DNA of 64,000 nt from Brachyhypopomus gauderio (Eukaryota; Chordata; Actinopteri; Gymnotiformes; Hypopomidae): assembly GCF_052324685.1 (NCBI RefSeq), contig NC_135214.1:25401765-25465764 (forward strand). The letters are read 5' to 3'. Position 1 is the stretch's first letter. Every line of letters begins with the position of its first letter. Below the pieces are notes generated by a model that was not told the DNA's origin, searched no databases, and saw nothing but the letters and a program-made list of their open reading frames with translations. This document shows positions 4,816-58,423 of the stretch, piece after piece. A program made the translations under genes and the position numbers.

Positions 4816-4909
4816 TCAAGGAAAGAACTTCTGCAATCACTAACTCACTGAATCAGACACCATTTAACAAAAAAAAAAGCTAGCAGAGACAGCGATGTTG
4901 CAATCAAAT

Positions 4910-4915
4910 TTTATT
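4910..4915 (-). terminator. Poly(A) signal of copy 1
   Basis: AATAAA on the minus strand lies about 67 nt after the TAG stop, within AAATAAAATTTG. It implies a 3' UTR of roughly 90 nt. The same signal is conserved after every copy, for example around 10278, 15645, 21015 and 26383. Confidence 0.8.
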
Positions 4916-4981
4916 TAAAAGGAGGAAGAACCATGTCAAGAACCGTTTCAGCATCCCACTGCAAGATGGTAGACTTGACCC

Positions 4982-7549
4982 CTAGTGCCTCACCATCCCA
5001 CTGAACTGGGTAGAAGGCAACTGGGATTTAATCTGCTGGAAGGAGGAAGGACCAGGCGTGTCCTGAGAAGAGCTGTAGCTGGTTGAGGAAGGAGATCCAC
5101 TAGTGCTCAACCACACACCAGAGGATTGTTGGTCCCTGCCAAAAGCCACAGCAGATGCTGGTTGCTTCACGACTGCCCATGTCACAGCATCCTGTCCCGA
5201 CTGACCAGAGTTGCCACCAACAAGTCCTTTGGACACCCCACTAGATGGGATCTGGGCAACTGGGCTATGTTGATTGGATGATGCAGTGTGGGGTCCTGGT
5301 TGGTTAGGGGTACCCTGCTTCTGGGCAGTGTGCAACAGCGCCTGGTGGGCAGACCACTGGCCTGTACCTGTAGCCTGGGATGGCAGAGATCCGTAGTAGC
5401 TGTTGCTCCCTTGTGCAGAGTCACTAGCAGACTGCTGGCTAGTGGAGGTCACACAAGCACTCACACTGGAATCCTCCATCTGGGTCTGGGCTGAAGCCTG
5501 GTTCTGGCTAGATGTCTGCCATGTGCTTGCAACCTGAGAAGGGTGGGCACCATAGGTGGTGGTGCTGCTTTGGGGTACTGCATCCCTAGCAGATGGTTGG
5601 CCGGCTGAAATAAAGCCAGAACTCACGCTGGCGACAGTGGAACCCTCCATCTGGGCCTGGGCAGTCTGTACTGAAGGCTGGTTATGGCTAGAAACCTGCC
5701 ATGTCCCTGCACCCTTGGAATACAGAGATCCATACCCACCGTTTTGTGGCACGTCACTGGAAGACTGCTGGCTGGTGGCGGTTGTCACACCAGACCCCAC
5801 ACTGGAACCCTTCATCTGGGCCTGGGCAGTCTGCAGTGCAGACTGGAAGCTAGATGTCTGCCATGTGCTTACAACCTGGGATGGCAGAACATTGTTGCTA
5901 CCGCTTTGTGCAGCATCACTAGCAGACCACCGTGTGGGGGAGGTCACACCAACACTATGCATCTGGGAATGGGCAGGTTGCAGTACAGGCCAAGAAGGTT
6001 GGGTACCATAGCTGCTGCTGGCAGACTGTTGGCTAGTGGAGGTCAAGCCAGAACCTACACCAGAACTCTGCATCTGGGCCTGGTTCTGGTTAGACGTCTG
6101 CCATGTGCTCCCACCCTGGGAATACAAAGGTGGATAGTAGCTACTTTTTGGTGGAACATCCCCAGACTGCTGGCTGGTTGAGCTTATACCAGGTGCAGAC
6201 TGGAGGCTAGATGTCAGCTGTGTACTTGCAACCTGAGAAGGGTAGGCAATATGGGAGGTGCTGCCACCTACTTGTGCAGACTGGAGGCTAGAGGTCAGCT
6301 GTGTACTTGCAACCTGAGAAGGGTAGGCAACATGGGAGGTGCTGCCACCTACTTGTGCAGACTGGGGGCTAGTAGAAGTTACACTGGAATGCATAGGGGA
6401 GCTGGGGCTAGACAAAAGAAGGAGTCTTGATTTCATGACTGGTGAAGCAGACCAGCTGGAACTCTGGTACTGACCACCAGAGCTGCCTTGCTGAGAGGTT
6501 GAAGCAGATACACCTACAGTCTGGGAGTCAGAAGGAAGCAGGAATTGTGGGTAGCTTTGAGGTTGAGAAGGGACATGGGTAGGAGGCTGAGGATTCTCTG
6601 GAGGAAGGTATGTTGACTGGCCTGAGGTCAGTGTCCAATATACTCCCTGGTTGTTAGGAGCAGACTGTACAGATGTAGCATGTCCCTTAGAACCAGTAGA
6701 CCAACTTGGGAAACCTTGAGCACTGGATACAGTGGCCAAGCTGTCAGAAGACCCCTGATGCAGAGCACCTTGTTGAAAAAGGTTGCTAGAAACCTGGGGG
6801 TTGCCAAGGACACTCTTGGAGCCCTGTCCCTGAAAATGAGTTTCAACATTGCCAGAGGAACCTGGCAGCTGGGCTTGGGTTACATGTCCAGGGACTTGCT
6901 GGCCACTTTGGAACACAGACTGGTAAATCCCAGCAGAGCCACTTGCAGTCTCAGATCCTGGCAAAACCATTTGATCACTGGAACCACAACTTGACTGTAC
7001 AACCTGAGTCCAACTGGGGTCCGAGACTTGCTGAGGCAGCACAGATCTACTTTGCATGCCTGCAACACTGGGAGCAGAGCCTGCGGTCTTGGTCACATAA
7101 GGAAGGTCGTGGACTCCTTGGTGTTGAGCCACAGAACCAGACACCGTTGCACCATACAAGGACAGTGGCACCCTTTTATTCCTCACTTGAAGGGGAAGGA
7201 ATAAAGAAATTGCTTATTTTCTTGGATGTGGACAAAGTAACAGTATCTGTGGTTTGGTGTGATCAATTTCTTACCTACAAGCCCATCTGCAGTCCTCAAC
7301 AGAAACACAGCAGTGAGGAGTAACCAATGCCTACAAGACAACAGAGCATTTAAACATAGGAAACATGCTGTCTTAAAAACAGACACAGAGATACCACATC
7401 ATGGTCTCATTATAGAACTACCTTCTGCACCACCACATCATGCCTCCAGACAAGAAAAACAAAAAAAAGAAGCCCAACTCCAAGCTTCATGCACCAACCC
7501 GTTCTCTATGAGATGCACAGACAAACACAGCACCCTTGCCTACCTGCAT
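4982..7549 (-). CDS. Copy 1: secreted Ser/Gln-rich repeat protein, 3 exons, 768 aa
   Basis: I do not recognise a family. My model is exon 1 at 7549-7544 (ATG CAG), exon 2 at 7371-7275 and exon 3 at 7185-4982 (TAG stop). Donors CAG|GTAGGC and TAG|GTAAGA, and acceptors TTTTTAAG and CCCTTCAAG, keep phases 0 and 1 exactly. There is no ATG between the TATA-like site and the start, and -3 is G. Residues 1-33 form a hydrophobic leader (MQTACFLCLNALLSC, then WLLLTAVFLL), a probable signal peptide. RNKR at 36-39 fits a furin-type site. The rest is rich in S, Q, T, G and A with two Cys and no NX(S/T) sequon seen. There is a 27-residue tandem duplication at about 310-363. Four degenerate repeats of about 55 residues, each beginning near (S)TWQ(T/V)S, run from about 395 to 645. 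Copy-specific residues are H17, S426, L651 and Q699. A structural, gel or adhesive role is inference only. Confidence 0.78.
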
Positions 7550-7680
7550 TCCTTTTAATCCTCTCAGTAAAGTAACCTGAAAGGAATCACCTGTTCAAAC
7601 ACTTTTCACCTGTTGTGCAGCTAATTAAAGAAACCAAGGCGTGACTAATGAGTGAACGATACTTGGCTTTATGAAGACAG
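7544..7680 (-). promoter_or_regulatory. Putative core promoter and 5' UTR of copy 1
   Basis: A TATA-like CATAAAG (minus strand 7673-7667) lies about 120 nt before the start codon. The presumed leader has no upstream ATG. Two E-boxes, each within AACAGGTGA on the minus strand, sit at 7588-7593 and 7607-7612, 19 bp apart. All nine units keep this arrangement. In unit 9 the TATA-like site reads TATAAAG (56090-56096). The transcription start is inferred, not seen. Confidence 0.5.
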
Positions 7681-10270
7681 TACTGCTGCAGTAGTACCAG
7701 AAACTGCATTTATTGATCCGACCTTAATGTTCTTTTCCTCTCATTTGCTTGTTTGTCACATGGGTGGAATTGACGGCCTGTTCCTCTGTTCTCCCCTTTG
7801 TGTGTTGAATATTTTAATCAAACACATATCATTTTCTCACTTTATGTTTGGTACAGTTTATTTACAAATGCTTTTGGGCCATTGATAATCCTTTTGTTCA
7901 TCTAATATTGATGAAGGTTAGATGTAGGCAGAATAGTTGTGAGGATCACAAATGATATTTCAGACACAGAATTATGATTCAAATGAAAACATGAATTAAG
8001 AAATAAATCTCAAAATTTCATGACACTTCATATAATCCTTTGGTTTGCTTTTACATGATGACGTACATCAGCTTTATCTGCAAAAGCAGTGTCACTGAGC
8101 ATTCACTACAACTAATGGAAGTTCATATTACATTATTTTATCCCCGAATTTCCACTCACTGAGAGTTTTTGGAGATCAGCGAGCAAAGGCCCAGATCCCC
8201 AGAGGCAAATTCGCTTTCACTCACTGTGTGTGTAAATCGCTCAAAGATATCATCAGTGAGACTTGCCATTGTCCTGCAGACACCCGAAAATGATCAACTG
8301 GCTAAATATCTGGAAAGGTAAAATCAGTCCAAATCTTGTAGTGTAAAATGTACTGGAATACTATTAAAATTGGCAGTGATTGTGGTAATGAGCTACAGCC
8401 AATGAGAGCACAAGACACAGACTAGGGTTCCTGTTAGGGTTAGGTTAACACAGGCAAATCCAAGGGAGGAGTTGTACAACAGCAGTCACGAGTTCACCAA
8501 AGTTTCCCACGATCTACTTGTTGTTTTCAACTACAGCACACACAGCTTTGATTCCTCAATTCTTGTTGATGTACATTTTGGAGATAATTTACATTGTTTG
8601 AATGGTATGGTGCTATTCCATGTCACTTCTGTCAGGTGTTCACATGACAAACTGTAGCTTGGAGACCAGACAGATTCATCAGTCCTCTTGGTGAAAGAGC
8701 TTGAAATGTGTGATTGTTTGTTACCAATCAGTCATGTAATGAATGTATCCCATTCTGTGTTTGTTTCAACCAAATAAGTTTCTCCGATTTGTTCCATATG
8801 ACCTAAGAACTTGTGCGGAAGTAACGGTTCTCCTGTAACCCTCCGAGTAAGAGCTGCTCAACGAGATTAAAACCACCTGTATGCAAACCACAACTTCAAC
8901 ATTTCAGAATACAGGTCAGCAAGTTGAGCAGTTTGAATGGTACACCAACCTTAAACTTGGAAAGTCACATTGTTTGTCTGTAGCCAGGGCCAGCCCAAGC
9001 CTTTATGGGGCCCTAAGCAGAATTTCATTTGGGGCCCCACATACAACCTCCTCAGCTCCAAATTCTTATGTAATAGGCTCATGGTGATATCTTGGTGCTC
9101 TTGGGTGCCCTGAGCAGCCACATAATTCGAGTCTGCCTTGGGCCAGCTCTGTCTGTGGCATAACGCACCTCTTCCTGCTCACTGCAGAATGAGCTAACTG
9201 GCAACATTAACTAGAGCACCACCAGCAAGAATGTCTACGGTATGCCCTCCTTTTTTATAAACCAAACACTGGAAAGACTCATGTCATCGCTGTAATCCAG
9301 AACTTCAAATTATGAAAAAGATCGCAGAAATACACTGACATTTAGAGAGGACAAATATTAGGGTCTTTGGATAGAGACGTTTAATGCAGTTAGCTTTCAT
9401 CTCAGCATTTAATTTTGTCCATGGATTTGTGTTTGAAACCAAAAGGTCTCATCAGTTATGAAGTGTTTGAAATCAACTGAATACATAAAATATATAATTG
9501 ACATCATGTAGATTATGTTGTCAAATGAACGAACAGCTTTACAGTAAGACCCCAACATTCACAGGGGTTAAGCTCCACACCATGAGTTTTGAAAACGTGT
9601 GCATTTTGGACAGACAACTAAGGCCTATAAAGACCCGTCTTCATATGTTAAACCCCAACACACTTCAGGTTACTTAAAAAATGTTAACTTGCATTAGTTT
9701 TTAAAATCATACAGGTAAAATGCAAGACAGTAGTGTACAGTAAGCTTACATACACGTATACTGTCTGTCATCTTGTGCCCTCTCCCATCTTCTACGAGAC
9801 GCTGAATGCTATGCCATTTTCTTTGTGTATGATAAAATTAGGGAACACTCATACATGCTTATGATGCACCAGCCACCATTTTCTTTACCAATAAAGCATT
9901 GTCTACAGTAAAAATCCATTCTCAAATTAAGTTCTAAATGCCCATTGACAGACCTCCTTGCTGTTAGCAGACCAAGTTACCATTCGTTGATACACTTTGT
10001 ATCCACCCCTCATCCACGCCAAGCTCACTTGGAGATCACTCACCTCGTGATAACCTGTGACGACATGAGAACCTAAACAGGGAAGTTACGCCGAGTCTTC
10101 TCAGCCACACAGCTCGACAAAGTGGTTCAGGCATTCAGATTCTGACCAGTATAGTTGCAACACGCATCAGGGGAAGAACTTCTGCAATCACCACTTGCTA
10201 ATGAGACCAACTCACTGAATCGGACACCATTTAACAGAAAAAAAAGCTAGCAGAGACAGCGATGTTGCAA
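7681..10270. other. Spacer between gene copies (unit 1 example)
   Basis: There is no coding region that I can support. It holds a telomere-like GTTAGGGTTAGG near 8435, a 167-bp hAT MITE (8985-9151) and otherwise unrecognised AT-rich sequence. The same spacer recurs at about 13045-15640, 18415-21010, 23785-26375, 29150-31745, 34520-37110, 39885-42490 and 45265-47860, and in diverged form at 56100-58423. Short open frames repeat in every spacer only because the DNA is copied. Confidence 0.7.
8985..9151. mobile_element. 167-bp hAT-type MITE carried in every unit
   Basis: Inverted termini CAGGGCCAGCCCAAG and CTTGGGCCAGCTCTG enclose a GGGGCCC-rich interior. The flanks TCTGTAGC (8977-8984) and TCTGTGGC (9152-9159) are an 8-bp target duplication with one mismatch. 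The same element at the same place occurs in all nine units (for example 14353-14519 in unit 2), so it was present before the unit amplified. Unit 9 carries a slightly longer version with an extra segment near 57505-57524. Confidence 0.85.
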
Positions 10271-10348: not shown

Positions 10349-12916
10349 CTAGTGCCTCACCATCCCACTGAACTGGGTAGAAGGCAACTGGGATTTAATC
10401 TGCTGGAAGGAGGAAGGACCAGGCGTGTCCTGAGAAGAGCTGTAGCTGGTTGAGGAAGGAGATCCACTAGTGCTCAACCACACACCAGAGGATTGTTGGT
10501 CCCTGCCAAAAGCCACAGCAGATGCTGGTTGCTTCACGACTGCCCATGTCACAGCATCCTCTCCCGACTGACCAGAGTTGCCACCAACAAGTCCTTTGGA
10601 CACCCCACTAGATGGGATCTGGGCAACTGGGCTATGTTGATTGGATGATGCAGTGTGGGGTCCTGGTTGGTTAGGGGTACCCTGCTTCTGGGCAGTGTGC
10701 AACACAGCCTGGTGGGCAGACCACTGGCCTGTACCTGTAGCCTGGGATGGCAGAGATCCGTAGTAGCTGTTGCTGCCTTGTGCAGAGTCACTAGCAGACT
10801 GCTGGCTAGTGGAGGTCACACAAGCACTCACACTGGAATCCTCCATCTGGGTCTGGGCTGAAGCCTGGTTCTGGCTAGATGTCTGCCATGTGCTTGCAAC
10901 CTGAGAAGGGTGGGCACCATAGGTGGTGGTGCTGCTTTGGGGTACTGCATCCCTAGCAGATGGTTGGCCGGCTGAAATAAAGCCAGAACTCACGCTGGCG
11001 ACAGTGGAACCCTCCATCTGGGCCTGGGCAGTCTGTACTGAAGGCTGGTTATGGCTAGAAACCTGCCATGTCCCTGCACCCTTGGAATACAGAGATCCAT
11101 ACCCACCGTTTTGTGGCACGTCACTGGAAGACTGCTGGCTGGTGGCGGTTGTCACACCAGACCCCACACTGGAACCCTTCATCTGGGCCTGGGCAGTCTG
11201 CAGTGCAGACTGGAAGCTAGATGTCTGCCATGTGCTTACAACCTGGGATGGCAGAACATTGTTGCTACCGCTTTGTGCAGCATCACTAGCAGACCACCGT
11301 GTGGGGGAGGTCACACCAACACTATGCATCTGGGAATGGGCAGGTTGCAGTACAGGCCAAGAAGGTTGGGTACCATAGCTGCTGCTGGCAGACTGTTGGC
11401 TAGTGGAGGTCAAGCCAGAACCTACACCAGAACTCTGCATCTGGGCCTGGTTCTGGTTAGACGTCTGCCATGTGCTCCCACCCTGGGAATACAAAGGTGG
11501 ATAGTAGCTACTTTTTGGTGGAACATCCCCAGACTGCTGGCTGGTTGAGCTTATACCAGGTGCAGACTGGAGGCTAGATGTCAGCTGTGTACTTGCAACC
11601 TGAGAAGGGTAGGCAATATGGGAGGTGCTGCCACCTACTTGTGCAGACTGGAGGCTAGAGGTCAGCTGTGTACTTGCAACCTGAGAAGGGTAGGCAACAT
11701 GGGAGGTGCTGCCACCTACTTGTGCAGACTGGGGGCTAGTAGAAGTTACACTGGAATGCATAGGGGAGCTGGGGCTAGACAAAAGAAGGAGTCTTGATTT
11801 CATGACTGGTGAAGCAGACCAGCTGGAACTCTGGTACTGACCACCAGAGCTGCCTTGCTGAGAGGTTGAAGCTGATACACCTACAGTCTGGGAGTCAGAA
11901 GGAAGCAGGAATTGTGGGTAGCTTTGAGGTTGAGAAGGGACATGGGTAGGAGGCTGAGGATTCTCTGGAGGAAGGTATGTTGACTGGCCTGAGGTCAGTG
12001 TCCAATATACTCCCTGGTTGTTAGGAGCAGACTGTACAGATGTAGCATGTCCCTTAGAACCAGTAGACCAACTTGGGAAACCTTGAGCACTGGATACAGT
12101 GGCCAAGCTGTCAGAAGACCCCTGATGCAGAGCACCTTGTTGAAAAAGGTTGCTAGAAACCTGGGGGTTGCCAAGGACACTCTTGGAGCCCTGTCCCTGA
12201 AAATGAGTTTCAACATTGCCAGAGGAACCTGGCAGCTGGGCTTGGGTTACATGTCCAGGGACTTGCTGGCCACTTTGGAACACAGACTGGTAAATCCCAG
12301 CAGAGCCACTTGCAGTCTCAGATCCTGGCAAAACCATTTGATCACTGGAACCACAACTTGACTGTACAACCTGAGTCCAACTGGGGTCCGAGACTTGCTG
12401 AGGCAGCACAGATCTACTTTGCATGCCTGCAACACTGGGAGCAGAGCCTGCGGTCTTGGTCACATAAGGAAGGTCGTGGACTCCTTGGTGTTGAGCCACA
12501 GAACCAGACACCGTTGCACCATACAAGGACAGTGGCACCCTTTTATTCCTCACTTGAAGGGGAAGGAATAAAGAAATTGCTTATTTTCTTGGATGTGGAC
12601 AAAGTAACAGTATCTGTGGTTTGGTGTGATCAATTTCTTACCTACAAGCCCATCTGCAGTCCTCAACAGAAACACAGCAGTGAGGAGTAACCAAAGCCTA
12701 CAAGACAACAGAGCATTTAAACATAGGAAACATGCTGTCTTAAAAACAGACACAGAGATACCACATCATGGTCTCATTATAGAACTACCTTCTGCACCAC
12801 CACATCATGCCTCCAGACAAGAAAAACAAAAAAAAGAAGCCCAACTCCAAGCTTCATGCACCAACCCGTTCTCTATGAGATGCACAGACAAACACAGCAC
12901 CCTTGCCTACCTGCAT
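10349..12916 (-). CDS. Copy 2: secreted Ser/Gln-rich repeat protein, 768 aa
   Basis: Same three-exon gene as copy 1, with exons 12916-12911, 12738-12642 and 12552-10349 and identical splice sites and phases. Relative to copy 1 it has L17 in the leader, which lengthens the hydrophobic core, V651 and E699. It keeps S426. The protein is identical to that of copy 3. In its upstream spacer it shares with copy 3 the variant GCAGTTAGGAG (near 13851), which no other unit has. Confidence 0.78.
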
Positions 12917-21086: not shown

Positions 21087-23654
21087 CTAGTGCCTCACCA
21101 TCCCACTGAACTGGGTAGAAGGCAACTGGGATTTAATCTGCTGGAAGGAGGAAGGACCAGGCGTGTCCTGAGAAGAGCTGTAGCTGGTTGAGGAAGGAGA
21201 TCCACTAGTGCTCAACCACACACCAGAGGATTGTTGGTCCCTGCCAAAAGCCACAGCAGATGCTGGTTGCTTCACGACTGCCCATGTCACAGCATCCTCT
21301 CCCGACTGACCAGAGTTGCCACCAACAAGTCCTTTGGACACCCCACTAGATGGGATCTGGGCAACTGGGCTATGTTGATTGGATGATGCAGTGTGGGGTC
21401 CTGGTTGGTTAGGGGTACCCTGCTTCTGGGCAGTGTGCAACACAGCCTGGTGGGCAGACCACTGGCCTGTACCTGTAGCCTGGGATGGCAGAGATCCGTA
21501 GTAGCTGTTGCTGCCTTGTGCAGAGTCACTAGCAGACTGCTGGCTAGTGGAGGTCACACAAGCACTCACACTGGAATCCTCCATCTGGGTCTGGGCTGAA
21601 GCCTGGTTCTGGCTAGATGTCTGCCATGTGCTTGCAACCTGAGAAGGGTGGGCACCATAGGTGGTGGTGCTGCTTTGGGGTACTGCATCCCTAGCAGATG
21701 GTTGGCCGGCTGAAATAAAGCCAGAACTCACGCTGGCGACAGTGGAACCCTCCATCTGGGCCTCGGCAGTCTGTACTGAAGGCTGGTTATGGCTAGAAAC
21801 CTGCCATGTCCCTGCACCCTTGGAATACAGAGATCCATACCCACCGTTTTGTGGCACGTCACTGGAAGACTGCTGGCTGGTGGCGGTTGTCACACCAGAC
21901 CCCACACTGGAACCCTTCATCTGGGCCTGGGCAGTCTGCAGTGCAGACTGGAAGCTAGATGTCTGCCATGTGCTTACAACCTGGGATGGCAGAACATTGT
22001 TGCTACCGCTTTGTGCAGCATCACTAGCAGACCACCGTGTGGGGGAGGTCACACCAACACTATGCATCTGGGAATGGGCAGGTTGCAGTACAGGCCAAGA
22101 AGGTTGGGTACCATAGCCGCTGCTGGCAGACTGTTGGCTAGTGGAGGTCAAGCCAGAACCTACACCAGAACTCTGCATCTGGGCCTGGTTCTGGTTAGAC
22201 GTCTGCCATGTGCTCCCACCCTGGGAATACAAAGGTGGATAGTAGCTACTTTTTGGTGGAACATCCCCAGACTGCTGGCTGGTTGAGCTTATACCAGGTG
22301 CAGACTGGAGGCTAGATGTCAGCTGTGTACTTGCAACCTGAGAAGGGTAGGCAATATGGGAGGTGCTGCCACCTACTTGTGCAGACTGGAGGCTAGAGGT
22401 CAGCTGTGTACTTGCAACCTGAGAAGGGTAGGCAACATGGGAGGTGCTGCCACCTACTTGTGCAGACTGGGGGCTAGTAGAAGTTACACTGGAATGCATA
22501 GGGGAGCTGGGGCTAGACAAAAGAAGGAGTCTTGATTTCATGACTGGTGAAGCAGACCAGCTGGAACTCTGGTACTGACCACCAGAGCTGCCTTGCTGAG
22601 AGGTTGAAGCAGATACACCTACAGTCTGGGAGTCAGAAGGAAGCAGGAATTGTGGGTAGCTTTGAGGTTGAGAAGGGACATGGGTAGGAGGCTGAGGATT
22701 CTCTGGAGGAAGGTATGTTGACTGGCCTGAGGTCAGTGTCCAATATACTCCCTGGTTGTTAGGAGCAGACTGTACAGATGTAGCATGTCCCTTAGAACCA
22801 GTAGACCAACTTGGGAAACCTTGAGCACTGGATACAGTGGCCAAGCTGTCAGAAGACCCCTGATGCAGAGCACCTTGTTGAAAAAGGTTGCTAGAAACCT
22901 GGGGGTTGCCAAGGACACTCTTGGAGCCCTGTCCCTGAAAATGAGTTTCAACATTGCCAGAGGAACCTGGCAGCTGGGCTTGGGTTACATGTCCAGGGAC
23001 TTGCTGGCCACTTTGGAACACAGACTGGTAAATCCCAGCAGAGCCACTTGCAGTCTCAGATCCTGGCAAAACCATTTGATCACTGGAACCACAACTTGAC
23101 TGTACAACCTGAGTCCAACTGGGGTCCGAGACTTGCTGAGGCAGCACAGATCTACTTTGCATGCCTGCAACACTGGGAGCAGAGCCTGCGGTCTTGGTCA
23201 CATAAGGAAGGTCGTGGACTCCTTGGTGTTGAGCCACAGAACCAGACACCGTTGCACCATACAAGGACAGTGGCACCCTTTTATTCCTCACTTGAAGGGG
23301 AAGGAATAAAGAAATTGCTTATTTTCTTGGATGTGGACAAAGTAACAGTATCTGTGGTTTGGTGTGATCAATTTCTTACCTACAAGCCCATCTGCAGTCC
23401 TCAACAGAAACACAGCAGTGAGGAGTAACCAATGCCTACAAGACAACAGAGCATTTAAACATAGGAAACATGCTGTCTTAAAAACAGACACAGAGATACC
23501 ACATCATGGTCTCATTATAGAACTACCTTCTGCACCACCACATCATGCCTCCAGACAAGAAAAACAAAAAAAAGAAGCCCAACTCCAAGCTTCATGCACC
23601 AACCCGTTCTCTATGAGATGCACAGACAAACACAGCACCCTTGCCTACCTGCAT
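21087..23654 (-). CDS. Copy 4: secreted Ser/Gln-rich repeat protein, 768 aa
   Basis: Same gene, with exons 23654-23649, 23476-23380 and 23290-21087. It has H17 like copies 1 and 6, the first appearance of G426 (shared by copies 4-9), V651 and E699. A private Q-to-E change sits at residue 544 within the third of the ~55-residue repeats. All splice signals are intact. Confidence 0.78.
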
Positions 23655-39756: not shown

Positions 39757-42570
39757 TCCTTTTAATCCTCTCAGTAAAGTAACCTGAAAGGAATCACCTG
39801 TTCAAACACTTTTCACCTGTTGTGCAGCTAATTAAAGAAACCAAGGCGTGACTAATGAGTGAACGATACTTGGCTTTATGAAGACAGTACTGCTGCAGTA
39901 GTACCAGAAACTGCATTTATTGATCCGACCTTAATGTTCTTTTCCTCTCATTTGCTTGTTTGTCACATGGGTGGAATTGACGGGCTGTTCCTCTGTTCTC
40001 CCCTTTGTGTGTTGAATATTTTAATCAAACACATATCATTTTCTCACTTTATGTTTGGTACAGTTTATTTACAAATGCTTTTGGGCCATTGATAATCCTT
40101 TTGTTCATCTAATATTGATGAAGGTTAGATGTAGGCAGAATAGTTGTGAGGATCACAAATGATATTTCAGACACAGAATTATGATTCAAATGAAAACATG
40201 AATTAAGAAATAAATCTCAAAATTTCATGACACTTCATATAATCCTTTGGTTTGCTTTTACATGATGACGTACATCAGCTTTATCTGCAAAAGCAGTGTC
40301 ACTGAGCATTCACTACAACTAATGGAAGTTCATATTACATTATTTTATCCCCGAATTTCCACTCACTGAGAGTTTTTGGAGATCAGCGAGCAAAGGCCCA
40401 GATCCCCAGAGGCAAATTCGCTTTCACTCACTGTGTGTGTAAATCGCTCAAAGATATCATCAGTGAGACTTGCCATTGTCCTGCAGACACCCGAAAATGA
40501 TCAACTGGCTAAATATCTGGAAAGGTAAAATCAGTCCAAATCTTGTAGTGTAAAATGTACTGGAATACTATTAAAATTGGCAGTGATTGTGGTAATGAGC
40601 TACAGCCAATGAGAGCACAAGACACAGACTAGGGTTCCTGTTAGGGTTAGGTTAACACAGGCAAATCCAAGGGAGGAGTTGTACAACAGCAGTCACGAGT
40701 TCACCAAAGTTTCCCACGATCTACTTGTTGTTTTCAACTACAGCACACACAGCTTTGATTCCTCAATTCTTGTTGATGTACATTTTGGAGATAATTTACA
40801 TTGTTTGAATGGTATGGTGCTATTCCATGTCACTTCTGTCAGGTGTTCACATGACAAACTGTAGCTTGGAGACCAGACAGATTCATCAGTCCTCTTGGTG
40901 AAAGAGCTTGAAATGTGTGATTGTTTGTTACCAATCAGTCATGTAATGAATGTATCCCATTCTGTGTTTGTTTCAACCAAATAAGTTTCTCCGATTTGTT
41001 CCATATGACCTAAGAACTTGTGCGGAAGTAACGGTTCTCCTGTAACCCTCCGAGTAAGAGCTGCTCAACGAGATTAAAACCACCTGTATGCAAACCACAA
41101 CTTCAACATTTCAGAATACAGGTCAGCAAGTTGAGCAGTTTGAATGGTACACCAACCTTAAACTTGGAAAGTCACATTGTTTGTCTGTAGCCAGGGCCAG
41201 CCCAAGCCTTTATGGGGCCCTAAGCAGAATTTCATTTGGGGCCCCACATACAACCTCCTCAGCTCCAAATTCTTATGTAATAGGCTCATGGTGATATCTT
41301 GGTGCTCTTGGGTGCCCTGAGCAGCCACATAATTCGAGTCTGCCTTGGGCCAGCTCTGTCTGTGGCATAACGCACCTCTTCCTGCTCACTGCAGAATGAG
41401 CTAACTGGCAACATTAACTAGAGCACCACCAGCAAGAATGTCTACGGTATGCCCTCCTTTTTTATAAACCAAACACTGGAAAGACTCATGTCATCGCTGT
41501 AATCCAGAACTTCAAATTATGAAAAAGATCGCAGAAATACACTGACATTTAGAGAGGACAAATATTAGGGTCTTTGGATAGAGACGTTTAATGCAGTTAG
41601 CTTTCATCTCAGCATTTAATTTTGTCCATGGATTTGTGTTTGAAACCAAAAGGTCTCATCAGTTATGAAGTGTTTGAAATCAACTGAATACATAAAATAT
41701 ATAATTGACATCATGTAGATTATGTTGTCAAATGAACGAACAGCTTTACAGTAAGACCCCAACATTCACAGGGGTTAAGCTCCACACCATGAGTTTTGAA
41801 AACGTGTGCATTTTGGACAGACAACTAAGGCCTATAAAGACCCGTCTTCATATGTTAAACCCCAACACACTTCAGGTTACTTAAAAAATGTTAACTTGCA
41901 TTAGTTTTTAAAATCATACAGGTAAAATGCAAGACAGTAGTGTACAGTAAGCTTACATACACGTATACTGTCTGTCATCTTGTGCCCTCTCCCATCTTCT
42001 ACGAGACGCTGAATGCTATGCCATTTTCTTTGTGTATGATAAAATTAGGGAACACTCATACATGCTTATGATGCACCAGCCACCATTTTCTTTACCAATA
42101 AAGCATTGTCTACAGTAAAAATCCATTCTCAAATTAAGTTCTAAATGCCCATTGACAGACCTCCTTGCTGTTAGCAGACCAAGTTACCATTCGTTGATAC
42201 ACTTTGTATCCACCCCTCATCCACGCCAAGCTCACTTGGAGATCACTCACCTCGTGATAACCTGTGACGACATGAGAACCTAAACAGGGAAGTTACGCCG
42301 AGTCTTCTCAGCCACACAGCTCGACAAAGTGGTTCAGGCATTCAGATTCTGACCAGTATAGTTGCAACACGCATCAGGGGAAGAACTTCTGCAATCACCA
42401 CTTGCTAATGAGACCAACTCACTGAAACCAACTCACTGAATCGGACACCATTTAACAGAAAAAAAAAGCTAGCAGAGACAGCGATGTTGCAATCAAATTT
42501 TATTTAAAAGGAGGAAGAACCATGTCAAGAACCGTTTCAGCATCCCACTGCAAGATGGTAGACTTGACCC

Positions 42571-48100: not shown

Positions 48101-50275
48101 GCCACAGCAGATGCTGGTTGCTTCACGACTGCCCATGTCACAGCATCCTGTCCCGACTGACCAGAGTTGCCACCAACAAGTCCTTTGGACACCCCACTAG
48201 ATGGGATCTGGGCAACTGGGCTATGTTGATTGGATGATGCAGTGTGGGGTCCTGGTTGGTTAGGGGTACCCTGCTTCTGGGCAGTGTGCAACACAGCCTG
48301 GTGGGCAGACCACTGGCCTGTACCTGTAGCCTGGGATGGCAGAGATCCGTAGTAGCTGTTGCTCCCTTGTGCAGAGTCACTAGCAGACTGCTGGCTAGTG
48401 GAGGTCACACAAGCACTCACACTGGAATCCTCCATCTGGGTCTGGGCTGAAGCCTGGTTCTGGCTAGATGTCTGCCATGTGCTTGCAACCTGAGAAGGGT
48501 GGGCACCATAGGTGGTGGTGCTGCTTTGGGGTACTGCATCCCTAGCAGATGGTTGGCCGGCTGAAATAAAGCCAGAACTCACGCTGGCGACAGTGGAACC
48601 CTCCATCTGGGCCTGGGCAGTCTGTACTGAAGGCTGGTTATGGCTAGAAACCTGCCATGTCCCTGCACCCTTGGAATACAGAGATCCATACCCACCGTTT
48701 TGTGGCACGTCACTGGAAGACTGCTGGCTGGTGGCGGTTGTCACACCAGACCCCACACTGGAACCCTTCATCTGGGCCTGGGCAGTCTGCAGTGCAGACT
48801 GGAAGCTAGATGTCTGCCATGTGCTTACAACCTGGGATGGCAGAACATTGTTGCTACCGCTTTGTGCAGCATCACTAGCAGACCACCGTGTGGGGGAGGT
48901 CACACCAACACTATGCATCTGGGAATGGGCAGGTTGCAGTACAGGCCAAGAAGGTTGGGTACCATAGCCGCTGCTGGCAGACTGTTGGCTAGTGGAGGTC
49001 AAGCCAGAACCTACACCAGAACTCTGCATCTGGGCCTGGTTCTGGTTAGACGTCTGCCATGTGCTCCCACCCTGGGAATACAAAGGTGGATAGTAGCTAC
49101 TTTTTGGTGGAACATCCCCAGACTGCTGGCTGGTTGAGCTTATACCAGGTGCAGACTGGAGGCTAGATGTCAGCTGTGTACTTGCAACCTGAGAAGGGTA
49201 GGCAATATGGGAGGTGCTGCCACCTACTTGTGCAGACTGGAGGCTAGAGGTCAGCTGTGTACTTGCAACCTGAGAAGGGTAGGCAACATGGGAGGTGCTG
49301 CCACCTACTTGTGCAGACTGGGGGCTAGTAGAAGTTACACTGGAATGCATAGGGGAGCTGGGGCTAGACAAAAGAAGGAGTCTTGATTTCATGACTGGTG
49401 AAGCAGACCAGCTGGAACTCTGGTACTGACCACCAGAGCTGCCTTGCTGAGAGGTTGAAGCAGATACACCTACAGTCTGGGAGTCAGAAGGAAGCAGGAA
49501 TTGTGGGTAGCTTTGAGGTTGAGAAGGGACATGGGTAGGAGGCTGAGGATTCTCTGGAGGAAGGTATGTTGACTGGCCTGAGGTCAGTGTCCAATATACT
49601 CCCTGGTTGTTAGGAGCAGACTGTACAGATGTAGCATGTCCCTTAGAACCAGTAGACCAACTTGGGAAACCTTGAGCACTGGATACAGTGGCCAAGCTGT
49701 CAGAAGACCCCTGATGCAGAGCACCTTGTTGAAAAAGGTTGCTAGAAACCTGGGGGTTGCCAAGGACACTCTTGGAGCCCTGTCCCTGAAAATGAGTTTC
49801 AACATTTTTTTGAAATTTGAAAAGTTTTATTTCGGTTATGTGTTCCACAATCAAAAAGAATATATATACCAACAAACAAACAAAACAACAACACAACCTC
49901 AGTTATAAATAAACATATCAGCAAAATACATATAACCGAAAAGGTATAGGTTGAAGCTTGTAACTTATTATACCTACCCTTTTTACATTAAGCCATTCTC
50001 ATAATTTGTATACCAAAGCAAAGTCACAAAATAACATTAAAATAAATAATAAATAAATGAATAATTAAATATCACCTAATCCATATATAATCATTGTACA
50101 AGTTTATAAGAATTTACTACCTTACTCTTGTACATTTTTTTGAATTTAGTTACTGAACTACACATTTTCATTTCCTTACTGCAATTATTCCACAAAGTTA
50201 ACCCCCTAACCGATACACACGATACTTTTTACTTTAAATTATAATCCATTAATATAATAATTTATATATTTTTGC

Positions 50276-50964
50276 TGATGCTGGTCCAGCGTGTCGCGTG
50301 CCAGTGATTATGCCTCGTGCCAATGGTGGCACGTGTGCCATAGGTTGCCGACCCCTGCTGTAGACTGTCAACCAGTTTCAGCTGTGGAAAATTCAATTAA
50401 AACAGGCGAATACACCACAATTAAGCCAACTACAGGAAAGTCTGATGTATGGAAGTCATATTCCATTGTAATTAATGGAGAGGGAAATCGGCTTGTTGTG
50501 ATTGATGTCAGAAAGTGTTGGTGTACGTCACCTGACGGCATGTGTTTGGACTGTGGTAAGAAATGGGACAGCGCAATCCATCGCTATATTGCTGTTTTAA
50601 TAAATACATAAGAAAATCTCAAGTACTAAATCTAATTAATTCAATTCATATTAGGATTGCGGGCGGGGGCGACAGAAATGTGTATGTGGCGGGCGAATGC
50701 GGGATTAAAACAAGCGATTTTTTGGCCGGTGCGGGCAGGAGCGGGACTAAAACAAGCAGGTGCGGGTGGGAGCGGGATTAAAACAAGCGATTTTTTGGCG
50801 GGAGTGGGATTAAAACAAGCGGGAGCGGGATTAAAAAAGCAGTCCCGCGCAGACCTCTAAACTGCAGCAAAAGAATCGATATTTTCGCCGTGGTATCGAT
50901 CCGATACCGATCCTCACCTTTGTATCGATACTATCGATATAAATATCGATCCGCCCACCCCTAG
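50276..50964. mobile_element. hAT-derived insertion inside LINE ORF2
   Basis: A hAT-type right end (TAGGTTGCCGACCCCTG, 50342-50358) is followed by a segment that translates to a BED-finger-like start (KSDVWKSYSIVING, about 50440-50490). A second hAT-like terminus, ATCGATCCGCCCACCCCTA, ends near 50963. It is probably two hAT fragments side by side. LINE coding sequence resumes on both sides. A clean 8-bp target duplication was not found. Confidence 0.6.
50655..50850. repeat. Degenerate GCGGGATTAAAACAAGCG minisatellite
   Basis: Variants of GCGGGATTAAAACAAGC with GCGGGAGCGGG linkers repeat about six times within the hAT-derived insertion. No coding value. Confidence 0.75.
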
Positions 50965-53900
50965 TTCATATGTGTTGTCTCTAGTTTCAAATAACTTCTG
51001 TATACTGTTAGGAAGAGAATTTTTTTCTGCCTTATACATTATCTGTGCAATATGTAAATCAACTATATCAAAATTTTAGAGCATGTTTTTTAAGAAACAG
51101 TTTATTGGTTGATTCATACTATCCTGCTTGGTTGATAATTCGCATTGCTTTTTTCTGCAGCATGAAAATTGGATGTGTGTTTGTTTTATATGCATTTCCC
51201 CATATCTCCACACAATAGGTCATGTGTGGAACTATTAAAGAACAGTACAGTATATATAGTGAATTTTGATTTAAAATATGTTTGGTTTTATACAGTATTG
51301 CAACTGTTCTGGCCATTTTAGTTTTTACATTATTTATGTGTGGTTTCCAACATAACTTATTATCTATTATCACCCCCAAAAAAATTTTTTCGTACACTCT
51401 TTCAATTTCAACATCATCTATACTAAGTTTTACCTCAGTTCTAATTTCTCGGTTACCAAATATCATAAACTTTGTTTTAGTTAGATTCAATGATAACTTA
51501 TTAATATCAAACCATCTCTTCATAGTACTTAATTCTCTTCCTACTGTATTCAGAAGCCATTCCAGTTTTTCCCCAGAACAATATAAATGTGTATCAGCAA
51601 ATAATACAGTTTTTAATAGATTTGAGACTTTACAAATGTCATTTACATATAATATGAACAGTTTAGGCCCCAACACTGAACCTTGAGGAATACCACAAGT
51701 AACATTCAATAAGTCAGATTTACTATTCCCTATTTGCACATATTGATATCTATTGCTTAAATAACTTTTGAGCCATAAGTATGCTACCCCTCTCATTCCA
51801 TATCTTTCCAGTTTTTTTAACAATATATCATGATCAATTGTGTCAAATGCTTTTTTTAGGTCTATAAAAACTCCAACTGTATATTCCTTATTGTCTATTG
51901 CTGTAGCTATGTCTTCTACTTGTTGCATTACTGCCATTGAAGTGGACCTATTTTCTCTAAAACCATATTGGTGTTCACTCAATAGGTTGTGCTTTTCTAG
52001 AAATCCATCGAGTCTATGAACAAATAGTTTTTCTAAAATTTTTGAAAACTGAGGTAGAAGAGAAACTGGTCTATAATTAGAAAATTGATGTCTGTCACCA
52101 CTTTTGTAGATAGGAATAATTTTGGCTATTTTATTAGGAAAAATGCCTGTCTGAAGTGACTGATTACAAATATGTGTAAAAGGTTTCACGATGCATTTTA
52201 TAATGTTTTTCACCAATGTCATATCCATATCGTTATAATCAGCAGACTTTTTATTTTTACATTTAATGATTTCAAGTATTTCATTTTCTTCTGTTCCCCT
52301 GATAAAAATGGAGTGAGGGTTTTTAGTAATTATGTCATATGCTATTCCATCCTTTATTTTAGGTTCCACAATCTCCCTTGCTAAATTATATCCTACATTA
52401 GCAGAATAATCATTAAATTCATTTGAAATTTCTTTTGCTTTATTTACAATTGTTTGGTTGTCTTTCACAAAATACTTAGGGTTACTTGTTTTTCCATCAT
52501 TTTTTCTAATTATGCTATTTAGTACTTTCCAAATTCCTTGCATATTACTCCTACACTGCTCTAGTACTTTCTGATAGTAATCCTTCTTGCTAACTCTAAT
52601 AATACTTACTAATTTATTTTTGTACCTCATATTTATATTCAGCTTCTTTTGTTCTTTGCTTTACGAATCTATTATATAATAAGTTTTTCTTTTTACATGC
52701 ATTTGCAATTCCCTTTGTTATCCATGGCTTGCCTTCAAATTTGTTCCTTACTTTGATTTTTTTTAAAGGACAATTTTTTTCATAAAACCCTGTTAGTATG
52801 GACAGAAAAACCCCATATGCCTTATCTGGATCATTATTTTTATATACTTCTGTCCAATCTTGTTTCATTAAGTCCTCCTTGAGAGCTGTAATAGTTTCTG
52901 GAATTCTATGTCTAACTAATTTATAAGTTTTTGGCCTGTGTTCTTTTTTAACTATAAACATGTTCTGAAAGACTGCAAAGACGGGAAGGTGATCACTAAT
53001 ATCTATGATGAACAGTTCACCAATTATTCTATCCTCAATTTTGTTTGTCCATATGTTATCAATTAGCGTTGCAGTGTCTGTAGTTATTCTGGTTGGTTTT
53101 ATAATTACAGGGAATAAACTATTACTATACAGTGTATTGATGAAGTCAGTTGTTTTTTTATATCCCTTTGGATTTAATAAATCAATATTAAAATCCCCAC
53201 ATATAATTTGTACTTTTTTAACTGTTCCAGTATACTCTCTAATCTAGCACTGAATGTATCAAGGCAGGTTCCTGGTGTTCTATATACGCAACTAATTAAT
53301 ATATTTTTTGTTTTTTCTATATTAATTTCTATAGTTACGCACTCCATTATATTATCTATTGCATATGACATATCTGTGACCATATTACATTGTAAGTCTG
53401 TATCAACATAGAGAGCAACTCCTCCTCCTACTTTATTAACCCTGTTAACTGTAAACAGTTCATATCCTTCCAACCCTCCTGCATAGTCTTTATCATGTTC
53501 AAGCCACGTTTCAGTTACTGCAATGACACTAAACTTTTTGAATTTATTCAAATACTCCTTAATTTTAGAAAATTTTTTGTTAAGGCTTCTGCTATTGAAG
53601 TGTATTATAGAAAATGCTCCTTCCATGTTGACCTTACTATTGAACTGTTCACTAGTGTAATACTCACACGAGTTATTGTTGTTGTTGTAGAAGTTGTTTT
53701 CTGGATCAATGTCGTTTCCAAACTCATATTTTGTGTTCTATCTGGTCAGTAGTACTAAAATTCAAAATTTCACCTTTACCATCCTGTCTATTTACATACT
53801 CAACCACACAGTCCTTGTTAATGTGCTCAAACTCTTCCTCATCAATTTCATTGAATGGAAATGAATAATCCTCATTTAGGTTATTCAATGGAAATGAATA

Positions 53901-53992
53901 ATCCTCATTTAGGTCTGTCATTTGTCGTGAATCCAATCTAGTATTAGTCTCCATGTCAAAGTAACTATGTTTTTCTTATCATGACAAGTGTC

Positions 53993-54708
53993 TTATACTT
54001 TTATGTACTGATTTAAATCTTCTAACTCCCTTATCATGATTACCTTTGCTTGTTCTGGTGTTCCGTTTAACCGTATCATTACTTTACAATTCCTTGTCCA
54101 TGTTGATTGTATTTTATTTTGTTTCCTGAGTATGCTTGCTTTTCTGGCTATGTCTGCGTTCTTTTTGGTGAGGTGCTCATTCACATACACCCCTGTCCCC
54201 TTCAGCTTTGTTCCCTGTCTCAGCAACTCAATCTTGTTCTTCCTGTTTGCAAATCGAATTATAATAGCTGGCTTCGTTTTGCTATCTTTTCTGGGGAGAG
54301 AGTGTGACAAGCTACAATGTCTTTACCTTGAATTTTTATGTTCCTTTCCTCAAAGAAGTTTATAACTTGCGTTTCCAGCGTTTGTAATTCCCTTGGCGAG
54401 GCATCCTCTCCATCTTTACTTCCAGCAGTAGTACTGGCGTAAGTTCTGTGCATTGTCTCTAGTCCACTTATAATTAAATCGTCCATTCTTGAGTATTGTT
54501 CGAGGTAGTCAATTCGTCGTTCAAGTCTCTCAATCATTTGATCTTTTTCTTTGATGAGGTTTTTAAGTTGTTTTACTTCCCCTAATAAATCAAGTAGCAT
54601 AACCTGCTGTTTGGCCACTTTACTAAGTTCTTCTGACATGAAGTTCAGGGATTTTCTGATCTCTTCCATTTCTTCCTCAGATACATTGCTAGCTTTCTTT
54701 GGTGGCAT
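53993..54708 (-). pseudogene. LINE ORF1: coiled-coil and RNA-binding-like protein, frameshifted
   Basis: It opens MPPKKASNVSEEEME and runs through a heptad-rich coiled coil (about residues 10-75, ending in RRIDYLEQYSR). The second part, in a shifted frame from about 54300, reads KPAIIIRFANRKNKIELL, typical of the RRM-like region of non-LTR ORF1 proteins. One frameshift near 54290-54310 separates the two. The stop at 53993 lies 39 bp before the presumed ORF2 start at 53954. Confidence 0.8.
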
Positions 54709-54736
54709 TATTGCAATTTAATCTGTTAGCTAGGGC

Positions 54737-55012
54737 TAACCGAGCAGAGTTAGCGGCGGTTGTAGCAGCCCCCAGGCGGGTAGCCGAGCAGAGTTAGCAG
54801 CGGTTTTAGCAGCCCCCAGGCCGGTAGCCGAGCAGAGTTAGCCATGGTTGTAGCAGCCCCCAGGCGGGTAGCCGAGCGGAGTTAGCAGCGGTTTTAGCAG
54901 CCCCCAGGCCAGTAGCCGAGCAGAGTTAGCCGCGGTTGTAGCAGCCCCCAGGCGGGTAGCCGAGCATAGTTAGCAGCGGTTTTAGCAGCCCCCAGGCCGG
55001 TAGCCGAGCAGG
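54737..55012 (-). repeat. 44-bp tandem repeats in the LINE 5' region
   Basis: Six full 44-bp units start at 54737, 54781, 54825, 54869, 54913 and 54957, and a partial unit follows at 55001. Each carries TAGCCGAGCAGAGTTAGC and CAGCCCCCAGG. Alternate units end GGCGGG or GGCCGG/GGCCAG and contain GTTGTAG or GTTTTAG, so the true period is an 88-bp dimer. The position just before ORF1 suggests promoter-like monomers, as known for some LINEs. Confidence 0.88.
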
Positions 55013-55152
55013 CAGCACTTCTAGTAAGCATACGTAGCATTATTCTACTGCCTGTCTATTCATGGTTTGATCTGGACTGTTTGCACTGCTCTTTTGGATT
55101 TGCCCCTTTGTACTGTTGCTTGGCTCTTGCGGTTTATTGGGATTACTGACCA

Positions 55153-55274
55153 GGGGGGTATTCCAAGTGATAAAACCGGGTGTTTACAGAAACTCGAGGT
55201 TTTCCGTTCCAGAAACCAAGCTTAAAGAGAACCTGAGTCAGTTACTATAGCAACTTAAGCTCTGAAGCTAACCT
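55153..55274. repeat. GGGGGTATTCCA repeat fragment between LINE 5' end and exon 3
   Basis: It begins AGGGGGGTATTCCA and ends CTGAAGCTAACCT. It aligns with 2432-2540 in the left flank through shared blocks GGTTTTCC, TTCCAGAAACC and GAGAACCTGAGTCAG. This is a dispersed teleost DNA repeat. It is directly attached to the exon at 55275, so it forms the right border of the insertion in copy 9. Confidence 0.7.
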
Positions 55275-56089
55275 GCCAGAGGAACCTGGCAGCTGGGCTT
55301 GGGTTACATGTCCAGGGACTTGCTGGCCACTTTGGAACACAGACTGGTAAATCCCAGCAGAGCCACTTGCAGTCTCAGATCCTGGCAAAACCATTTGATC
55401 ACTGGAACCACAACTTGACTGTACAACCTGAGTCCAACTGGGGTCCGAGACTTGCTGAGGCAGCACAGATCTACTTTGCATGCCTGCAACACTGGGAGCA
55501 GAGCCTGCGGTCTTGGTCACATAAGGAAGGTCGTGGACTCCTTGGTGTTGAGCCACAGAACCAGACACCGTTGCACCATACAAGGACAGTGGCACCCTTT
55601 TATTCCTCACTTGAAGGGGAAGGAATAAAGAAATTGCTTATTTTCTTGGATGTGGACAAAGTAACAGTATCTGTGGTTTGGTGTGATCAATTTCTTACCT
55701 ACAAGCCCATCTGCAGTCCTCAACAGAAACACAGCAGTGAGGAGTAACCAAAGCCTACAAGACAACAGAGCATTTAAACATAGGAAACATGCTGTCTTAA
55801 AAACAGACACAGAGATACCACATCATGGTCTCATTATAGAACTACCTTCTGCACCACCACATCATGCCTCCAGACAAGAAAAACAAAAAAAGAAGCCCAA
55901 CTCCAAGCTTCATGCACCAACCCGTTCTCTATGAGATGCACAGACAAACACAGCACCCTTGCCTACCTGCATTCCTTTTAATCCTCTCAGTAAAGTAACC
56001 TGAAAGGAATCACCTGTTCAAACACTTTTCACCTGTTGTGCAGCTAATTAAAAAAACCAAGCAGTGACTAATGAGTGAACGATACTTGG

Positions 56090-56096
56090 CTTTATA
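56090..56096 (-). promoter_or_regulatory. TATA box of the edge copy 9
   Basis: This reads TATAAAG on the minus strand, about 120 nt before the start codon at 55972. Copies 1-8 have CATAAAG at the corresponding place. Confidence 0.5.
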
Positions 56097-56099
56097 AAG

Positions 56100-58423
56100 A
56101 CAGTACTGCTGCAGTAGTACCAGAAACTGCATTTATTGATCCGACCTTAATGTTCTTTTCCTCTCATTTGCTTGTTTGTCACATGGGTGGAATTGACGGC
56201 CTGTTCCTCTGTTCTCCCCTTCGTGTGTTGAATATTTTAATCAAACACATATCATTTTCTCACTTTATGTTTGGTACAGTTTATTTACAAATGCTTTTGG
56301 GCCATTGATAATCCTTTAGATGTAGGCAGAATAGTTGTGAGGATCACAAATGATATTTCAGACACCGAATTATGATTCAAATGAAAACATGAATTAAGAA
56401 ATAAATCTCAAAATTTCATGACACTTCATATAATCCTTTGGTTTGCTTTTACATGATGACGTACATCAGCTTTATCTGCAAAAGCAGTGTCACTGAGCAT
56501 TCACTACAACTAATGGAAGTTCATATTACATTATTTTATCCCCGAATTTCCACTCACTGAGAGTTTTTGGAGATCAGCGAGCAAAGGCCCAGATCCCCAG
56601 AGGCAAATTCGCTTTCACTCACTGTGTGTGTAAATCGCTCAAAGATATCATCAGTGAGACTTGCCATTGTCCCGCAGACACCCGAAAATGATCAACTGGC
56701 TAAATATCTGGAAAGGTAAAATCAGTCCAAATCTTGTAGTGTAAAATGTACTGGAATACTATTAAAATTGGCAGTGATTGTGGTAATGAGCTACAGCCAA
56801 TGAGAGCACAAGACACAGACTAGGGTTCCTGTTAGGGTTAGGTTAACACAGGCAAATCCAAGGGAGGAGTTGTACAACAGCAGTCACGAGTTCACCAAAG
56901 TTTCCCACGATCTACTTGTTGTTTTCAACTACAGCACACACAGCTTTGATTCCTCAATTCTTGTTGATGTACATTTTGGAGATAATTTACATTGTTTGAA
57001 TGGTATGGTGCTATTCCATGTCACTTCTGTCAGGTGTTCACATGACAAACTGTAGCTTGGAGACCAGACAGATTCATCAGTCCTCTTGGTGAAAGAGCTT
57101 GAAATGTGTGATTGTTTGTTACCAATCAGTCATGTAATGAATGTATCCCATTTTGTGTTTGTTTCAACCAAATAAGTTTCTCCGATTTGTTCCATATGAC
57201 CTAAGAACTTGTGCGGAAGTAACGGTTCTCCTGTAACCCTCTGAGTAAGAGCTGCTCAACGAGATTAAAACCACCTGTATGCAAACCACAACTTCAACAT
57301 TTCAGAATACAGGTCAGCAAGTTGAGCAGTTTGAATGGTACACCAAACTGATTACTTGGAAAGTCACATTGTTTGTCTGTAGCCAGGGCCAGCCCAAGCC
57401 TTTATGGGGCCCTAAGCAGAATTTCATTTGGGGCCCCACATACAACCTCCTCAGCTCCAAATTCTTATGTAATAGGCTCATGGTGATATCTTGGTGCTCT
57501 TGGTTGCCTCCTGGTGGCGTGGGGGCCCTGAGCAGCCACATAATTCGAGTCTGCCTTGGGCCAGCTCTGTCTGTGGCATAACGCACCTCTTCCTGCTCAC
57601 TGCAGAATGAGTTAACTGGCAACATTAACTAGAGCACCACCAGCAAGAATGTCTACGGTATGCCCTCCTTTTTTATAAACCAATCACTGGAAAGACTCAT
57701 GTCATCCCTGTAATCCAGAACTTCAAAGTATGAAAAAGATCGCAGAAATACACTGACATTTAGAGAGGACAAATATTAGGGTCTTTGGATAGAGACATTT
57801 AATGCAGTTAGCTTTCATCTCAGCATTTAATTTTGTCCATGGATTTGTGTTTGAAACCAAAAGGTCTCATTCGTTATGAAGTGTTTGAACTCAACTGAAT
57901 ACATAAAATATATAATTGACATCATGTAGATTATGTTGTCAAATGAATGAACAGCTTTACAGTAAGACCCCAACATTCACAGGGGTTAAGCTCCACACCA
58001 TGAGTTTTGAAAACGTGTGCATTTTGGACAGACAACTAAGGCCTATAAAGACCCGTCTTCATATGTTAAACCCCAACACACTTCAGGTTACTTAAAAAAT
58101 GTTAACTTGCATTAGTCTTTAAAATCATACAGGTAAAATGCAAGACAGTAGTGTACAGTAAGCTTACATACACGTATACTGTCTGTCATCTTGTTCCCTC
58201 TCCCATCTTCTACGAGACGCTGAATGCTATGCCATTTTCTTTGTGTATGATAAAATTAGGGAACACTCATACATGCTTATGATGCACCAGCCACCATTTT
58301 CTTTACCAATAAGGCATTGTCTACAGTAAAAATCCATTCTCATATTAAGTTCTAAATGCCCATTAACAGACCTCCTTGCTGTTAGCAGACCAAGTTACCA
58401 TTTGCTGATACACTTTGTATCCA
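56100..58423. other. Diverged spacer of unit 9
   Basis: It is homologous to the other spacers but carries many more differences: a missing stretch of about 25 bp near 56318, an added segment near 57505-57524 and scattered substitutions. It ends abruptly at TTTGTATCCAC, about 185 bp short of the unit border, against the LTR element. Confidence 0.85.

Follow-up and report, generated by a model that had tools for sequence, protein, structure and literature searches.

Why would a fish genome hold a row of nearly identical genes for a low-complexity protein that carries a signal peptide? This question is raised by a window of 64,000 nucleotides from Brachyhypopomus gauderio (contig NC_135214.1, here called C4; C4:25401765-25465764 in the 796.5-Mb assembly). 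A preliminary description of this window reported eight near-identical 5.37-kb copies of a serine- and glutamine-rich gene, with a disrupted ninth copy at one edge. Our results show that the array is real and part of something larger than first noted, a gene family with two arrays and a promoter of its own.

Layout and homogeneity of the C4 array

The C4 array consists of eight complete head-to-tail units with a period of 5367-5382 bp and a split ninth unit, and all of its genes lie on the minus strand. The units are located at the following window positions:

4982..7441, minus strand, coding span of the unit 1 gene (exon 1 7441-7422, exon 2 7330-7275, exon 3 7185-4982), 759 amino acids (aa), with a splice layout shared with paralogues
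10349..12808, minus strand, unit 2 gene, 759 aa
15717..18176, minus strand, unit 3 gene, 759 aa, with a 9-T run upstream of ATGATG that disrupts a 768-aa model
21087..23546, minus strand, unit 4 gene, 759 aa
26454..28913, minus strand, unit 5 gene, 759 aa
31822..34281, minus strand, unit 6 gene, 759 aa
37189..39648, minus strand, unit 7 gene, 759 aa
42571..45030, minus strand, unit 8 gene, 759 aa
47938..49806, minus strand, 3' part of the disrupted copy in unit 9
55274..58424, minus strand, 5' part of unit 9, comprising the start of exon 3, exon 2, exon 1 (55865-55846), the promoter and a diverged upstream spacer

Unit homology extends over 4839-58424 by BLAST and from ~4816 by eye. Since genome searches revealed no array units outside the window, it seems to contain the entire array; apart from this, the searches detected close copies only ~320 kb to the left, in inverted orientation and 96-98% identical. 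Pairwise substitutions among units 1 to 8 amount to 0.037-0.242%, with no identical pair and only two positions separating the closest one (units 4 and 6), while unit 9 differs from the others by 0.58-0.68%. The eight near-identical copies and the disrupted ninth were thus recovered as initially described. The head-to-tail arrangement of kilobase units with an open reading frame (ORF) is that of a macrosatellite, with an interruption in unit 9 only, and near-identical multi-kilobase units that each carry an intact gene, as found here and in the second array of the family, are what is expected of a tandem dosage array.

It is very improbable that the array is a single-copy locus stuttered by the assembly. 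The length of one homopolymer does differ by unit (7, 8 or 9 T), as sequencing errors would cause, but the units also differ from one another at 19 substituted positions scattered along them, in a mosaic pattern, and unit 7 has a 14-bp duplication and one unit a private insert. The 14-bp tandem duplication, at 42409-42440 and present in unit 7 only, lies beside a segment that the left array edge lacks and may mark a unit junction.

All four allele combinations (four-gamete conflicts) were observed at 8 of the 36 informative site pairs among units 1 to 8, indicating that the units swapped segments. Unit 9 carries 26 private substitutions; in unit 1 coordinates all of them lie upstream of 7630, and its gene has none (p 3e-9). 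We read this pattern as a sign that the gene part was probably homogenised earlier than the insertion, with decay at the edge of the array. The idea that unit 9 retains ancestral bases mostly does not hold, as the relative at 320 kb sides with unit 9 at 6/26 of these positions and with units 1 to 8 at 20/26.

Gene model, shared promoter and dispersed family

The gene in each unit is described by a 759-residue model with an ATGATG start and two GT-AG introns (91 and 89 bp), for which splice-site scores were based on consensus frequencies. This model is intact in all eight complete units, which encode five distinct proteins, and the chance of 759 open codons at the base composition of the array is p ~2e-13. 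Exons 1 and 2 encode MMWWCRR[H/L]WLLLTAVFLLRTADG, by eye a typical signal peptide, and hydrophobicity averaged over 11 residues peaks here within the protein. The signal peptide noted earlier is kept as a prediction made by eye and hydropathy and conserved across paralogues. It is directly followed by RNKR, which we take to resemble a furin site. Downstream of the stop codon the following feature was found:

4910..4915, minus strand, AATAAA polyadenylation signal, 66 nt past the unit 1 stop and in the same exon

The protein had originally been given as 768 residues. We reproduced these exactly with an ATGAAG start and a GC-AG intron, and rejected that model: the ATGATG start, both introns and the signal peptide are kept in the paralogues, whereas the ATGAAG start is absent there. 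Moreover, the T-run at 7461-7468 and its equivalents, in the presumed 5' untranslated region, contains 7, 8 or 9 T depending on the unit, and the 768-residue frame fails in unit 3 (9 T instead of 8) and unit 9 (7 T), while the ATGATG located 49 nt downstream works. In unit 9, the 7-T run brings an upstream ATG in frame with this proposed start.

An exon-like stretch at 8159-8269 on the minus strand, MASLTDDIFERFTHTVSESEFASGDLGLCSLISKNSQ, occurs in the spacer of every unit, with acceptor- and donor-like ends and a phase compatible with exon 2; the acceptor AG is missing in unit 9. Searches of Pfam and the Protein Data Bank (PDB) with this stretch gave zero matches.

The proximal promoter of the gene is represented by the following block:

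7563..7597, minus strand, proximal promoter block of unit 1, TGAACAGGTGATTCCTTTCAGGTTACTTTACTGAG, with a 12-bp box at 7597-7586 and the TATA-like ATTAAAAGG at 7559-7551 just downstream

The block TGAACAGGTGATTCCTTTCAGGTTACTTTACTGAG is found in all nine array units with zero mismatches, and the 12-bp box TGAACAGGTGAT is invariant in 9/9 aligned family loci, where it lies upstream of a TATA-like TTAAA. Genome-wide, TGAACAGGTGATNNNNATCAG was matched 21 times, each time at a family gene or fragment, compared with no occurrence of the reversed pattern and a chance expectation of 0.09 in 797 Mb. The C4-type variant accounts for 11 mismatch-free occurrences, nine in the C4 array and two in the inverted relative. 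As the family genes share descent, this distribution shows specificity and conservation and not independent recruitment. The family promoter also contains a CAGGTG E-box, which may be of the FIGLA type.

The gene does not stand alone in the genome but is a member of a dispersed family. A search with the exon-3 frame of the window gave 52 matches (best 60 of 293 candidates scored), and a second one with the C36 relative as query gave 39; among the matches listed, members were located on C4, C8, C10, C13, C14, C36, C42, C96 and C114. Both searches combined yielded at least 29 long open exon-3 frames on six contigs, namely eight in the C4 array, one single gene on C4, 12 in an array on C10, two elsewhere on C10, three on C14 and one each on C114, C36 and C8. 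The C114 copy may be a haplotype copy of one C14 locus, to judge from the displayed flanks, which look alike. Open exon-3 frames ranged from 368 to 1656 aa among the matches listed. At C14:12343000-12358900 (L015, L016), two adjacent members carry His-rich 52-aa repeats, and the exon-3 frame of one is open for 1656 aa.

The second array, at C10:14445331-14494372, comprises 12 units, mostly ~4.42 kb apart (spacings 4274-4860 bp, 9 of 11 within 4413-4421 or near), with open frames of 512 to 730 aa. The three-exon layout was found in 14/14 modelled genes (13 genes in loci taken from the genome, and unit 6); the modelling left out a partial second copy in L009, L012 (C96), L013 (C42), L022 (C13) and L023 (C10). 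The six C10-array units modelled have, by eye, lost the AG that normally serves as exon-3 acceptor, and the script took a downstream acceptor, so that their precise exon-3 start is uncertain; the C36 gene uses a different exon-3 acceptor. When a tree was built from the first 900 bases of the coding sequences, each array clustered with itself, as is expected from concerted evolution.

Protein composition, constraint and mobile elements

The mature C4 product contains 22.7% Ser, 13.3% Gln, 9.7% Gly and two Cys, in agreement with the nearly Cys-free, S/Q/G/T-rich composition first described, and the whole protein has 23 Lys plus Arg and 21 Asp plus Glu. N-glycosylation sequons are absent from the mature product, compared with 5.2 expected (p 0.001), and are also below expectation in C4_single, C14a, C114, C10_s, C14b and C14c (p 0.004-0.047). 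The tails of the proteins differ: the C4 gene has weak S/Q repeats of 27-55 aa, two C14 genes (up to 1672 aa) have 52-aa repeats rich in His, Ser, Gly and Pro, and the C10-array genes have 49-aa repeats that contain Asp, Arg, His and Trp. Judged by composition, the family proteins are probably largely disordered.

Constraint was assessed on the N-terminal 300 residues of 10 genes. The ratio of nonsynonymous to synonymous differences per site (pN/pS) was 0.64-0.92 across 41 informative pairs of 45, which share branches and are not independent; the other four pairs were set aside as near-identical genes. In 25 of the 41 pairs the bootstrap upper bound was below 1. Synonymous divergence (dS) among the compared family pairs was 0.3-1.3, a level that would be expected to leave many stops in frames of such length if they were unconstrained. 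These values suggest that the family is under moderate protein constraint; the C4 array is too young to reveal any.

The remaining features of the window are mobile elements in and beside the array:

49807..55273, minus strand, insert of 5467 bp in unit 9 exon 3, a non-LTR (long terminal repeat) retrotransposon with other repeats at its ends
58425..61241, plus strand, Ty3/gypsy-type element adjoining the right array edge, with an LTR-like end by eye

The insert contains a reverse transcriptase (RT) frame at 51119-52660 and endonuclease-like pieces at 52617-53737, both with sub-threshold Pfam matches. An Rfam scan detected only a UnaL2 tail of a long interspersed nuclear element (LINE), which, together with the genome size and the zona pellucida and globin clusters described below, would suit a teleost. 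At one end of the LINE-containing insert, tandem repeats of 44/88 bp at 54740-55011 are possibly promoter monomers. The Ty3/gypsy-type element carries a gag-like frame at 58562-59911 (sub-threshold Pfam) and an RT/RNase H frame at 59946-61241.

Likeness to known systems and possible roles

The exon-3 frame of the window had 0 matches at E<=1 against Pfam, NCBIfam and PDB sequences, consistent with the earlier statement that the protein belongs to no recognised family. Six paralogue frames gave four Pfam matches, in three frames and all below the curated cut-off. In viral and prokaryote collections we obtained 5 and 33 pattern matches, respectively, none of them a relative by tblastn. Nothing in the open-licence literature searched was recognised as this family, which does not imply its absence from print, and passages of two papers on fish egg envelopes (PMC9513835, PMC12186722) held no match to it.

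In architecture, the family resembles the mammalian REST genes (semenogelins and seminal vesicle secretory proteins), which share an upstream region and a signal-peptide exon and have a fast-evolving, repeat-rich major exon (PMC7556508). Both groups are secreted (in the C4 family by prediction), both combine conserved signal-peptide exons with a divergent major exon, and members of both differ strongly in this exon. However, the REST order of signal-peptide exon, major exon and untranslated 3' exon is not that of the C4 gene, whose three exons divide the signal peptide between exons 1 and 2 and place the polyadenylation signal in the coding exon; in addition, the C4 family has copies in near-identical arrays, and the likeness drawn here is one of architecture. 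REST genes are further characterised by homology to SEMG or PI3, a locus between Matn4 and Kcns1 and products that are transglutaminase substrates. A dispersed family of Schistosoma japonicum is also described as having a core promoter and signal sequence in common while its bodies are diverse (PMC3434034); the species is a flatworm, the abstract mentions no near-identical tandem arrays, and the likeness is by description.

Tandem near-identical multi-kilobase units with a secreted low-complexity product, interpreted as a means of dosage, are known from the starry flounder antifreeze array of twelve nearly identical 11.2-kb repeats (PMC9122973). The C4 gene and its protein composition are different, the comparison going beyond description through Pfam only. 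The human macrosatellites TAF11-Like, RS447 and D4Z4 (PMC3018141) are likewise tandem, with a kilobase unit and one ORF each; they encode a TAF11-like protein, a deubiquitinating enzyme and a DNA-binding protein, in contrast to the predicted secreted repeat protein with dispersed paralogues on C4.

Tandem amplification is further shared with teleost zona pellucida (ZP) genes, which are structural egg-coat genes; of 131 ZP genes in the blackfin icefish, 109 are tandemly duplicated (PMC7307600). In the present genome a ZP search gave 145 matches (best 150 of 231 candidates scored), including near-identical arrays at C9:13190957-13285346 (at least 25 matches, ~3.9-kb spacing) and at least 32 matches in three groups on C2:46922234-48403655. 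Globin, as the sole control family a thin control, gave 18 matches; 15 of these form a cluster on C6 that includes a few similar copies but no long evenly spaced array. In contrast to ZP proteins, the C4 protein has almost no Cys, no match to the ZP domain (Pfam PF00100) was obtained at E<=1 with the window exon-3 frame and six paralogue frames, and no similarity was detected between the family and three ZP frames of the same genome. A ZP origin, or co-regulation with ZP genes through the promoter box, is unsupported in the three ZP stretches examined.

Taken together, we lean towards a family of abundant, predicted secreted and disordered structural proteins that was amplified for dosage. The C4 array is one of two large tandem arrays in a family unnamed in the searched libraries, each gene of which combines a compact proximal promoter (TGAACAGGTGAT box and TTAAA), two tiny signal-peptide exons and one large body exon. 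The body consists of a moderately conserved S/Q-rich N-terminal region followed by a fast-changing tail of ~27-55-aa repeats, and unequal crossing-over and gene conversion would recently have multiplied and homogenised the copies. Most likely, the family would serve to supply large amounts of a structural material outside the cell, such as a coat, gel or glue. Its proteins would associate with one another or be cross-linked by way of aromatic, Gln and Ser side chains and not through disulphides. Selection for high dosage of a structural product had been proposed from the outset; this fits the tandem amplification seen twice (C4 and C10), and dosage selection itself, like transcription, secretion, disorder, the material role and the tissue, is what we infer for the family.

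Several observations weigh against this interpretation. The ratio of nonsynonymous to synonymous substitution (dN/dS) is only moderately below 1, and 16/41 pairs do not exclude 1; pN/pS in the internal repeats was 0.78 in frame versus 0.88 out of frame, in a weak test. Several family loci are fragments or carry stops, and the six C10-array proteins and C36 show no sequon depletion. The C4 product is poor in charged residues, Lys among them, so that transglutaminase cross-linking would need another partner, and neither strand of the three ZP stretches contains the promoter box. Finally, the density of single-nucleotide polymorphisms in units 1 to 8 is equal in coding and non-coding sequence (8/2280 versus 11/3087, p=1), and 5/8 coding substitutions alter the protein. 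These last two values would be expected of a neutral macrosatellite, in which unequal crossing-over alone, with no selection for dosage, multiplied a unit that happens to contain a gene, as may be the case for some human ORF macrosatellites, and recent turnover alone would account for the near-identity of the units. We nevertheless regard neutral expansion as unlikely, because all eight complete units are open, the family has a second array of 12 units on C10, and frame, signal peptide and promoter box are kept in divergent paralogues.

For the structural product favoured above, the arrays of ZP genes in the same genome make an egg-coat or egg-adhesive role the first guess, and the egg envelope is our tentative choice of tissue. 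The product might specifically belong to a non-ZP coat, jelly or adhesive layer of the oocyte or egg, a possibility to which we give equally cautious weight. Two C2 ZP frames have N-terminal extensions that are likewise rich in Gln and Ser, and the E-box, if taken as FIGLA-type, points in the same direction. In medaka ChgH/Hm, transglutaminase acts on Gln-rich N-terminal Pro-Gln-Xaa repeats when the chorion hardens (PMC10140178), and a protein with 13% Gln could share such a mechanism. The egg-coat role suggested initially thus has circumstantial backing from the ZP arrays, but the missing box and the dissimilarity of the three ZP frames speak against it. The same protein features would fit a mucus, skin or larval-gland secretion or a seminal gel, and the REST-like architecture is that of mammalian semen coagulum genes (PMC7556508); we consider these alternatives to the egg coat rather unlikely. 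By analogy, and tentatively, the family may be a fish-lineage counterpart of the REST genes, united by a private promoter and signal-peptide cassette. Its repeat tails would be remade again and again, and its repeated expansion into near-identical arrays would supply a material secreted in bulk, for instance an adhesive or an egg coat not made of ZP proteins.

With the 12-bp promoter box at hand, a reporter assay could address the question of tissue directly. If expressed as predicted, the family would be a vertebrate case in which one promoter and signal-peptide cassette bears very different repeat bodies and underwent two or more tandem amplifications within the same genome. A single family would then allow comparison of selection for dosage, gene conversion and the turnover of repeat tails, and it could reveal a so far unknown bulk secreted material.

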